A DNA stretch of 38,306 bases from assembly GCA_017624115.1 (NCBI GenBank), contig JAGANQ010000027.1, positions 1 to 38,306 on the forward strand. The letters are read 5' to 3'. Made by a program: the position numbers and the translations under genes. Each line of letters starts with the position of its first letter. Position 1 is the first letter of the stretch. The DNA is from Lachnospiraceae bacterium (GTDB lineage: Bacteria > Bacillota > Clostridia > Lachnospirales > Lachnospiraceae). This document shows positions 27,412 through 31,886 of this stretch, piece after piece. The notes below the pieces were generated by a model that saw nothing but the letters and a program-made list of their open reading frames with translations, was not told the origin of the DNA and ran no database searches.

Positions 27412-27468
27412 ACCACTAAAAATCTATTTGACAGCGGTGGCTGTTGATGGTATATTATCTTTAGTGGT
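27412..27468 (+). promoter_or_regulatory. Promoter of the abiF-type RNA, flanked by inverted repeats
   Basis: TTGACA (27428-27433), 17 bp, TATATT (27451-27456) is a near-consensus promoter directed to the small RNA and the abi gene. A perfect 9-bp inverted repeat, ACCACTAAA (27412-27420) with TTTAGTGGT (27460-27468), frames it and could be an operator. Confidence 0.8.
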
Positions 27469-27531
27469 TGTGCTGCGGAAACTTGAGATGCCCGTAGCCG
27501 GTGGAGTTCCATGCGTGGACTCCACTTTTTT
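27463..27531 (+). ncRNA. Small RNA upstream of abi gene (abiF RNA motif candidate)
   Basis: A transcript of about 70 nt is predicted, beginning 7 bp after the -10 box and ending in a T6 terminator. Hairpin 1 pairs GCTGCGG (27472-27478) with CCGTAGC (27492-27498) with one G-U pair. Hairpin 2 pairs GTGGAGT (27501-27507) with ACTCCAC (27519-27525), then TTTTTT (27526-27531). Conserved structured RNAs directly upstream of abiF-type genes have been described (abiF RNA motif), and this fits by position and form. A role as RNA antitoxin or guide-like partner of the HEPN protein is inferred from reports on that family. Confidence 0.7.
27501..27531 (+). terminator. Terminator of the small RNA
   Basis: A 7-bp GC-rich stem (27501-27507 with 27519-27525) and T6. 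Reading through it would reach the abi gene 28 bp further on, so it can serve as an attenuator between RNA and protein. Confidence 0.85.
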
Positions 27532-27559
27532 ATACCACAAATCAGGAAGAAGGGATAGA

Positions 27560-28428
27560 TTGGCAAAAACATTTTTAACATACCAGCAACAATTACAAAT
27601 CCTTGAACAGGACAAACAACTGTCTATTCCTAATCCCGATTACGCTAAGCAAATGCTGGAAGAAATCAGTTATTATTCTCTTATTGGAGGATATAAATCT
27701 TTATTTAAGCACAATGCATCAAATAAATTTGCTCACGGAGTAACATTTGATGAATTGGTTTCATTTTATTACTTTGATGAAGAATTGCGCACCCTGTTTT
27801 TAAAATATATCCTTCATGTAGAACGTCATATGAAATCCATGTTCTCGTACCACTTCTGTGAGAAATATGGTGAACAGCAGCGTTATTATCTGGATGTAAA
27901 TTGCTATAATTACAATAAGAAAAACCAGCAGCAAGTACGTAGACTTGTTCACTCTTTGCAAAAGTCAATCTCGGTACCAAGCCAGTACGCATACATAAAT
28001 CATTCAGCCAACACACACCATAATATACCTTTATGGGTTGCAACGAATGCATTGACTTTTGGTCAAATCTCCAAAATGTATCAATACGCAACTACAGATT
28101 TAAGAGCAAAAATAAAAATGTATGTGCTCATGGCGAACGACTCTTTTCATTCCGTATCCATGAGACAATACCAAATACCCTATTGCATAAAAAGTTGCAA
28201 ATCTCCCGGAAAAACGGGAATTATCAATATGGCAAGCAGGACTTGTTTGCTGTCGTAATTGCCTTGCGCTATCTAATTAGTCCTAGAGATTTTAAAGAGT
28301 TCAAATCCGGATTAACCAAATTAATCAACAAGGTTCTCAAGCAGTGCCCACACCTTACATGTGATCAATTGCTAACGGAAATGGGATTCCCGGAGAACTG
28401 GGAGAAGATTATGCGGTATAAGAAATAG
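27560..28428 (+). pseudogene. Abi family (AbiF/Abi_2, HEPN) gene, frameshifted with internal deletion
   Basis: Abi_2 proteins are phage-defence or toxin RNases with a HEPN fold. The N-terminal part is typical: a TTG start at 27560 after AGAAGGG, AKTFLTYQQQLQILEQDK, YYSLIGGYK, LRTLFLKYILHVERHMKSMF and IPLWVATNALTFGQISKMYQ. Near 28107-28125 the frame shifts, and the next part (NVCAHGERLFSF, YGKQDLFAVVIALRYLISP, MGFPENWEKIMRYKK) continues in another frame to the stop at 28428. Family members have about 25-30 more residues between SKMYQ and the RNVCAH motif; these are missing here, and the HEPN Arg of RNxxAH reads Lys. So an out-of-frame deletion seems to have removed part of the active site. The promoter, small RNA and terminators around it are intact. 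Confidence 0.85.
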
Positions 28429-30049: not shown

Positions 30050-30712
30050 ATGACACACCCGATTACCCGCTTCCACTATCGTGGAAGCCTCATACGTGAA
30101 TATACAGATAACGAGCTTTCTGCGGCAATCACAGCATGCAAAGCCGACATTACAAAGCTTATAAAAAGCGGCCGCATCATGACTGCTGCCCTCTACCACC
30201 ACAAACACATGCTTTTTCTATACTATGAGGTTATCGGTGAGGAAATCAGACCGGAAGAATTCTGCTCTGCCCTCACACCTTATATGCAGGAATGGCCCGG
30301 CTTCGAAGGAAACCGCCTCTGGGTGTCCATGTACCACATTTATTATCATGCTATCCCGGAAAACGTGGAGGATTGGAAGCGTCCGACGGTACCGGAGCTT
30401 CGCCGCGGCAGAATCGCCTTTCTCTATCCGGATAAGCTCTACAGCTACATTTATCATCATCTGAATATCGTAAAAGAAGGGCTTCTAACCGGTGACAAAT
30501 ACCAGTCCATTGCCCTCCATGAAAATATTTTATTCTCTTACTTTGAGGAACCGAAGACCATGATGAATATCAAGCGTGACACTTCCCGTTCCTCCGAGGT
30601 CATCAACGAATGGATGGCGGTCGACCCGGAAAGCCACTTCATCCATTACCCGGAGTGCCTCGGCGAAAACTTCATGTTTCTTCCGGCATATTTCGCACTC
30701 GGCATGGAGTAA
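30050..30712 (+). CDS. Protein of unknown function (220 aa)
   Basis: I do not recognise this protein. It is 220 aa, without signal peptide or membrane segment, and rich in aromatic residues (Tyr, His, Trp). The stretch ALYHHKHMLFLYYEVIGEEI followed by FCSALTPYMQEWPGFEG is loosely reminiscent of the L-rhamnose mutarotase type dimeric alpha/beta barrel, but not enough to assign it. The C-terminal half has HENILFSYFEEPKTMMNIKR. AAAGGAG precedes the ATG at normal distance and codon use matches the neighbours, so it is a real gene. It follows kdgK after a terminator and may belong to sugar metabolism by context only. Its TAA stop is supplied by the first bases of the large palindrome that starts at 30709. 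Confidence 0.8.
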   Translation: MTHPITRFHYRGSLIREYTDNELSAAITACKADITKLIKSGRIMTAALYHHKHMLFLYYEVIGEEIRPEEFCSALTPYMQEWPGFEGNRLWVSMYHIYYHAIPENVEDWKRPTVPELRRGRIAFLYPDKLYSYIYHHLNIVKEGLLTGDKYQSIALHENILFSYFEEPKTMMNIKRDTSRSSEVINEWMAVDPESHFIHYPECLGENFMFLPAYFALGME

Positions 30713-31305
30713 GGCTTATCGTTGTTATTACGAGAAGTACTGCTTATCTGCAATGTTTTCAAATATAGCTTTAGAGAAAGCACGGAATTTGGCATTTCTA
30801 ACACCAGACTTTGGAAAGCGTTTATGATTTGTGTCTTTCGAAGCATCGAGCAAGCCAGGGGCAAAATGTCCGTCAGGAGAAAGACAGATGATAGAAAAGT
30901 TTCGTGCCGCTCTCGGCAGACAGCCAAGCAAAACGTAAGCGCGTAAATGTGTGTCTGAGCTCTCAACCTTATCATATCAATGATAATTGGAGCGAGTTCA
31001 CATTACGCGCTTTTATATCGATTTTGTAATAGTAGCACAGCTAAAGCGCACAAGGCGCAGCTGTGCGCAGGTTCTCGATTGCTTTGCAATCGGAACAATA
31101 TCTGACTTAGAGCGGCTAGAAACTTTGATTGTCTGTCTTCCCTGAGCGGACATTTGCCCTAGCTTGTCGATTGCATCAAAGACACAAAATTCGCTTTCCA
31201 AAGCTCTGGATATAAGAAATCCTCAAATTCCGTGTCAATCTCTCTAAAGCTTATATTTGAAAAACGCAGATTTCAGCTTCTCGTAATAACAACCATAAGC
31301 CTTAC
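30709..31305. repeat. Large imperfect palindrome (about 600 bp)
   Basis: Two arms of about 210 bp are inverted copies of each other with mismatches and small gaps. The outer 29 bases (30709-30737 and 31277-31305) agree at 28 positions. Other shared blocks are TTTTCAAATATA, CACGGAATTTG, CTTTGGAAAGCG, TTTGTGTCTTT and AATGTCCG. Near the middle AAGCGCGTAAATGTG (30937-30951) pairs with CACATTACGCGCTT (30999-31012), and the apex is TTATCAT/ATGATAA (30969-30986). The right arm has extra hairpins: GCACAGCT/AGCTGTGC (31035-31066) and CGATTGC/GCAATCG (31076-31092). Both ends carry a TAA that is the stop codon of the flanking convergent gene. No intact gene is seen inside. Confidence 0.9.
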
Positions 31306-31886
31306 ATCCCTGCACATGCGATATCCTCTCTTATCTGTGCCAGACATTGCTCCAGGTCTGCATTCTGGTAGCGCTTCTCTATCCCGCAGGCGCGCAGGTT
31401 TTCCTCCGCGAAATCCTTCTCGTCTGCCAGGTAGCGCCTGCACAGCTCTGCATATTTCGGCTCATTCTGCTGCATCTCCCGGTGCAGTGCTCTCTCAAGC
31501 CGCACTCCGTCATCAACCTCGATATATAACGGCACAAAGCTCTCAGCGCCATAATATTCCCGCAGCTTCTGATACGATTCCAGCGTCCCAATCATCAGAT
31601 AATTATTCTCCTGCAGATTGACCTGGCCGTCATCCACGGTAAAGTAATACCATATTCCATGCACCGTATGATAAGCGCGCACCTCGATAATTTTCCCTTC
31701 CGCCTCAAAACGCTTAAGTGCTTCCTCCGTCACAAAATGATACTCCCTGCCGTCAGTCTCGCCCTCACGCATCGGGCGGGTTGTATAAAGCACCACTGTC
31801 CGAAAGTCATATTCCTTCAACAGTCTCTGATAAATTGTATCCTTTCCGGAGGCACTTTTTCCCATTACATAAAATATTCTGCCCAT
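31302..31886 (-). CDS. Guanylate kinase-like P-loop protein
   Basis: A 194-aa P-loop kinase of the guanylate kinase fold. The Walker A is GKSASGKDT (9-17) and the GMP-binding-type motif TTRPMREGETDGREYHFV follows, so the core is Gmk-like. It differs from housekeeping Gmk where the family has a YGT motif (here VHGIWYYFTV) and in the middle region, so it may be a paralogue with another nucleotide or regulatory role. GAGAGAGAAATC precedes the ATG. It follows the Orn/Lys/Arg decarboxylase by 26 bp on the same strand; this pairing recurs in clostridia and recalls the bacillary yaaO-tmk arrangement. Its stop TAA lies in the end of the large palindrome. Confidence 0.85.
   Translation of the reverse strand: MGRIFYVMGKSASGKDTIYQRLLKEYDFRTVVLYTTRPMREGETDGREYHFVTEEALKRFEAEGKIIEVRAYHTVHGIWYYFTVDDGQVNLQENNYLMIGTLESYQKLREYYGAESFVPLYIEVDDGVRLERALHREMQQNEPKYAELCRRYLADEKDFAEENLRACGIEKRYQNADLEQCLAQIREDIACAGM

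Follow-up and report, generated by a model that had tools for sequence, protein, structure and literature searches.

A family of long fold-back repeats in Lachnospiraceae with a conserved apical core and arms that are probably renewed as DNA

An imperfect palindrome between two convergent genes

The window, by which we mean the whole stretch of DNA analyzed, comprises 38,306 nucleotides of contig JAGANQ010000027.1 from the genome of a Lachnospiraceae bacterium (GCA_017624115.1). Within it two genes converge on an imperfect palindrome of 597 bp (30709..31305). The left-hand gene (30050..30712, plus strand) encodes 220 amino acids that match no Pfam family, and its TAA stop codon at 30710-30712 lies at one end of the element. 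The right-hand gene (31302..31886, minus strand) encodes a guanylate-kinase-like protein of 194 amino acids, and its stop, read as TTA at 31302-31304, lies at the other end. Elsewhere in the window, at 27428-28428, there is an abortive-infection-like Abi_2 gene in which a frameshift has apparently produced two overlapping ORFs; Pfam Abi_2 matches the first of these, and the second, taken alone, has no match.

The outer block of the left arm of the palindrome (30709..30737, plus strand) is specific to this copy, and is complementary at 28 of 29 positions to the outer block of the right arm (31277..31305, minus strand). Further in, exact blocks pair at 30756/31252 and 30809/31192, and over the whole copy the arms are ~78-80% identical. 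The palindrome that an earlier note on this DNA had described is therefore real, with inner blocks that still pair. The note had also suggested a long hairpin, and indeed either strand folds into a single giant hairpin, at -308 and -310 kcal/mol compared with -158 kcal/mol for shuffled sequences, with z-scores of -19 and -25.

A conserved core, the region of our models R1 and R2, occupies 30896..31126 (plus strand) and contains two mismatched loops. The alignment and conserved columns place the first of these at 30904..30905, the GT of a GTG, opposite 31117..31118, the TA of a CTA. The second is an internal loop near the apex, formed by TGTCTGA (30952..30958) and its partner GAGTT (30994..30998), that is kept between genera; all four elements are given on the plus strand. 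Inside the core of the window copy there is an insert of 73 bp (31028..31100, plus strand), within which lie two small hairpins. It is found only in this copy (C59) and in copies C68 and C56, and defines the minority type to which the window copy belongs. The insert is possibly a second, smaller repeat. Part of it is also found once outside any copy, at L049 (G000:C79:25066-25120).

A repeat family with a core found in several genera

A search of the assembly to which the window belongs (2.0 Mb in 94 contigs, 76% complete) returned 95 BLAST pieces of the palindrome sequence. From these, together with a search for the end motif, we recovered 17 copies with both sides, five short derivatives and 12 pieces cut by contig ends, which corresponds to roughly 29-34 copies in the genome. 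Most copies are ~530-590 bp long, and there are deletion derivatives of 63, 69 and 137 bp with the same ends as the full copies. Many of this genome's contigs terminate within a copy, and the family probably breaks assemblies. Like MITEs, the copies are short, non-coding, numerous and dispersed. No reading frame is conserved among them and no Pfam family matches above the cut-off, so that a hidden protein is rejected; an origin from phage or plasmid is likewise rejected, there being no match at the DNA level.

The terminal repeat GAGGCTGYYGCATTT is present at most copies in this genome, and is absent from the window copy and from other genera. Within the 76% complete assembly the motif occurs only at copies of the element and at a few terminator-like sites. 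Divergence between copies is U-shaped, being ~0.3 at the ends compared with 0.01-0.16 in the core. This is the reverse of the pattern expected for a transposon defined by its terminal repeats.

When context genes were called by a simple ORF rule, 14 of the 17 full copies were found to lie between convergent genes, in accord with the position suggested from the window copy, and 11 of the 12 contig-end pieces face the 3' end of a gene. The placement of stop codons at both ends, on which the earlier note had dwelt, holds for the window copy and fails as a general feature of the others, where the position of the stops ranges from ~20 nt within the aligned ends to 86 nt beyond them. Both stops fall exactly at the ends in just two of the 17 full copies, the window copy and C34c. 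Stop-codon placement is thus incidental, a consequence of the setting and not a property of the element, and insertion at stop codons is rejected; evolution with two stop codons is not supported. In the G103 lineage convergent sites account for 39% of contexts against a background of 9% (p 3e-8), a weaker bias than in the window's genome, and no such bias is seen in G073 and G318, where contexts are mixed. It is plausible that the element may help to end transcription between convergent genes. The region of the window copy has no promoter or intrinsic-terminator consensus; the terminator scan of 30500-31500 gave no GC-rich stem followed by a T run with a loop of 3-8 nt, a limit that places very large hairpins outside the scan.

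The expectation that a DNA search of Lachnospiraceae genomes would reveal other copies was borne out within the window's own genome and failed outside it. DNA similarity gave no homologue in 40 relatives and then in 397 genomes of the family, bar one chance-like match of 33 bp, and homologues in other genera were reached only by covariance models of the core. The first model found five copies in G318, 17 in G073 and 20 in G103, with one weak match in G283, and a second added two in G116 and one each in G268 and G027. The last is a genome of another family of the order; the other genomes with matches belong to Lachnospiraceae genera. Nearly all the matches in other genera are long palindromes (~220-660 bp, 68-78% self-complementary). 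Against its own reverse strand, a palindromic model scores 45-54 bits. For that reason we rejected the view that every palindrome match is a homologue, and accepted weak matches only with the apical loop.

The loop TGTYTGA/GAGTT, set within covarying stems, is common to G318, G073, G103, G116, G268, G283 and G027, although some of the G103 copies have a degenerate form of it and one copy from G318 has had it erased. The GTG...CTA loop is common to G000, G318, G073, G103 and G116, and the stem beside it varies freely (CCGCTCT/AGAGCGG, TTTCTCT/AGAGAAA and ACTTTCT/AGAAAGT). The ends of the element differ between genera while the core persists. Matches of the G103 type occur, according to contig titles, in Lachnospiraceae MAG contigs from cattle, deer and other sources. 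The family is previously unlisted, and is spread over several genera of gut bacteria. The covariance models of Rfam gave no match to it and a literature search no description, in agreement with the earlier remark that no named element has this form.

Arms that change together

The two arms of a copy match each other better than they match arms from other copies in every one of 11 windows along the arm, and in ten of these none of 5000 permutations was as good. Both ends of C11 have AATCCAAACGTGCTGTCGCA, and both ends of C86a have GGCTTTT(T)CTGTAAGGGGG. An 11-nt block from the coding end of the flanking gene (TCACACTGGAC) recurs in the opposite arm of C36. Covariation within copies extends along almost the whole length of the arm, orthologous sites included.

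RNAalifold analysis of 16 copies gives 171 pairs, 43 of which have changes on both sides. For the core, in 32 copies from four genera, the covariation score is 0.591 compared with 0.186 for shuffled sequences. Here 91.5% of cells pair, the corresponding figure being 67% for shuffles and 35-45% when partners are slid, and 43 of 58 pairs change on both sides; shared ancestry of the copies can inflate such covariation and the clustering of double changes. The covarying helices by which a structured RNA family is recognized are thus present, and the claim that the arms have altered at many places yet still pair is sustained, with covariation above every shuffle.

These compensatory changes, pervasive as they are, together with the conserved internal loops and the position at the 3' ends of genes, would be consistent with a structured non-coding RNA or a cis-acting element at the 3' end of mRNA (a bidirectional terminator, an RNase III site or a stabilizer of convergent transcripts), the stem being kept by selection on the transcript. 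Under selection of this kind G.U would be expected to be better tolerated than A.C on the strand that is transcribed, with most double changes being transitions that pass through G.U. Single departures from pairing across the four genera comprise 223 G.U and 246 A.C, and in the core the numbers are nearly equal (15 G.U and 10 A.C). The 245 distinct double changes divide into 149 transitions and 96 transversions (39%), close to the spectrum of single changes. With G.U and A.C equally common, the pairing bears no sign of being kept for RNA, which favors a process at the level of DNA. In the small set of orthologous sites from G103, G716 and G717, however, there are ~15 G.U against 5 A.C, as RNA would show, and on this evidence some RNA constraint may act on the element. 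The lack of promoter or intrinsic-terminator consensus in the region, the frequent loss of arms at orthologous sites and the lack of an Rfam family also stand against selection on a transcript, and we regard it as an unlikely explanation of the stem.

Further observations bear on a DNA process. At L110 in G318 the place of the apical loop has been taken by an exact complement of the opposite strand, generating a perfect apical hairpin. Comparison of L131 (G103) with L173 (G716) reveals an inversion in place, the flanks of a shared site enclosing the element in opposite orientations in the two species. With the inverted locus left out, the orthologous sites of G103, G716 and G717 contain 12 double changes where ~1 is expected; all 12 are re-paired, and about half are transversions. 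Within a copy, double changes at adjacent positions are more frequent than under a column-wise null, an excess to which shared ancestry may contribute. Together the parity of G.U and A.C, the transversions, the clustered double changes, the overwritten loop and the inversion point to DNA template switching rather than RNA selection. One half is probably rewritten from the other when the DNA is copied, which would explain why the arms change together.

Marks of such a kind are described for template switching between inverted repeats (PMC8794818, PMC8604942). The likeness to this quasipalindrome correction extends to multibase compensatory changes, homogenization of arms and inversion of the spacer. 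The correction is a process of mutation and not an element; in the present case an entire family of mobile repeats, with arms over 100-250 bp, would be subject to it. The mismatched loops persist despite a process able to erase them, and this argues that the loops matter. The family provides a natural test case of whether covariation always means RNA selection. If our interpretation is confirmed, a long palindrome could not be credited with a function as RNA on covariation alone, and the apical loop, being conserved, would offer a handle on a putative mobilizing enzyme.

Mobility, decay and comparison with known systems

We think it probable, though by no means assured, that the palindrome belongs to a Lachnospiraceae family of small, non-coding and non-autonomous fold-back repeats, MITE- or REPIN-like, in which an apical core is conserved and the arms are renewed by template switching. 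Each copy is a single imperfect inverted repeat, ~220-660 bp in length, that folds into one hairpin. In the core near its apex, the internal loop TGTYTGA/GAGTT and, in most genera, the GTG/CTA loop would be the recognition site of a putative mobilizing enzyme acting in trans. The arms would be under little constraint of sequence, their complementarity being renewed in the DNA by template switching (quasipalindrome correction) during replication, so that each copy would drift with both sides changing together. Accumulation between convergent genes might arise because insertion is tolerated there, or because the hairpins of bidirectional terminators are targeted. Copies would decay by loss of an arm or collapse to short hairpins. 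A search by end motif in the 76% complete assembly found no mobilizing enzyme or autonomous partner.

The targeting of terminator hairpins could be taken further, such that the core would enter the loop of hairpins already in place, mostly bidirectional terminators, and the copy-specific outer arms would be target and not element. The outer blocks are indeed specific to each copy yet matched on both sides, even where copies share nothing. There are two alternative types of outer arm, and the two ends of a copy are nearly always of one type (43 I/I, 21 II/II and 3 crossed, with 9 having an unclassified end). Moreover in the window's genome the distance from stop codon to element on one side is correlated with that on the other (rho 0.87, n 13; 0.79 when the two extreme copies are left out), and the bias toward convergent genes is in the same direction. 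Yet the outer blocks are mostly recognizable as family sequence, and the G103 lineage shows no correlation of distances. Only a perfect 44-bp hairpin remains at one site in G716. Since the element is present there in both G103 and G717, this sole bare hairpin is best read as a deletion, and is rejected as a pre-insertion site. We therefore consider insertion into hairpin loops improbable.

A classical MITE of a DDE-type insertion sequence, with GAGGCTGYYGCATTT terminal repeats moved by its transposase and the long palindrome incidental, would account for the shared TIR-like ends in the window's genome and for the deletion derivatives that keep them, but is very improbable given that clean ends read by eye reveal no consistent target duplication, that no further pair of GAGGCTGYYGCATTT-type ends spans a gene in the 76% complete assembly, that the core is the most conserved part and the ends the least, and that the ends differ between genera while the core persists.

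Returning to the fold-back family with a conserved core, decay of its copies is directly seen. Three close species of the G103 genus (G103, G716 and G717) carry dozens of copies, and most of the sites compared among them are shared; at several, either one arm or the greater part of the element is gone. The element at L137 is absent in G716 and G717, where the flanks are too rearranged for a target duplication to be read. The empty sites examined are deletions or rearranged, with no clean new insertion bearing a target duplication among them. A more speculative form of the proposal, which we would hold only tentatively, is a mobile hairpin of a new class. In this the fold, read through the apical TGTYTGA/GAGTT loop as single-stranded DNA or RNA, would be the substrate of the putative enzyme; with the arms rewritten in the DNA the sequence would be free to change and the fold inherited.

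Several known repeats are similar in part. The palindromic MITEs ERIC/IRU and Correia/NEMIS (PMC10969869) are also dispersed, non-coding, imperfect palindromes in intergenic DNA with size variants, likely moved in trans, and transcripts of the Correia element are cut by RNase III (PMC10969869). The present element is several times longer than ERIC at 127 bp (PMC2759123), and unlike ERIC/IRU and Correia its identity resides in an apical core with conserved mismatched loops and not in terminal repeats; no target duplication was seen. Like SPRITE and other terminator-like repeats of pneumococcus (PMC10969869), it is a hairpin repeat associated with terminator-like sequence, but it is much longer, and the window copy has no intrinsic-terminator consensus in the scan with loops of 3-8 nt. 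REPINs and BIMEs with their RAYT transposases (PMC3116915) are likewise families of hairpin repeats kept within genomes, where structure is conserved more than sequence, whereas the present element is one continuous stem of hundreds of bp.

The junction in the sister species G001 that is syntenic with 30709-31305 of the window (L088:1587-1680; G001:C51) has the same convergent gene pair with a palindrome of a different family between them. It was therefore rejected as a plain empty site. This unrelated repeat has dozens of matches in the G001 genome, often at contig ends. At L143 in G116 several further inverted repeats lie within ~700 bp of a copy of the element, and some of these are complementary to its arms.
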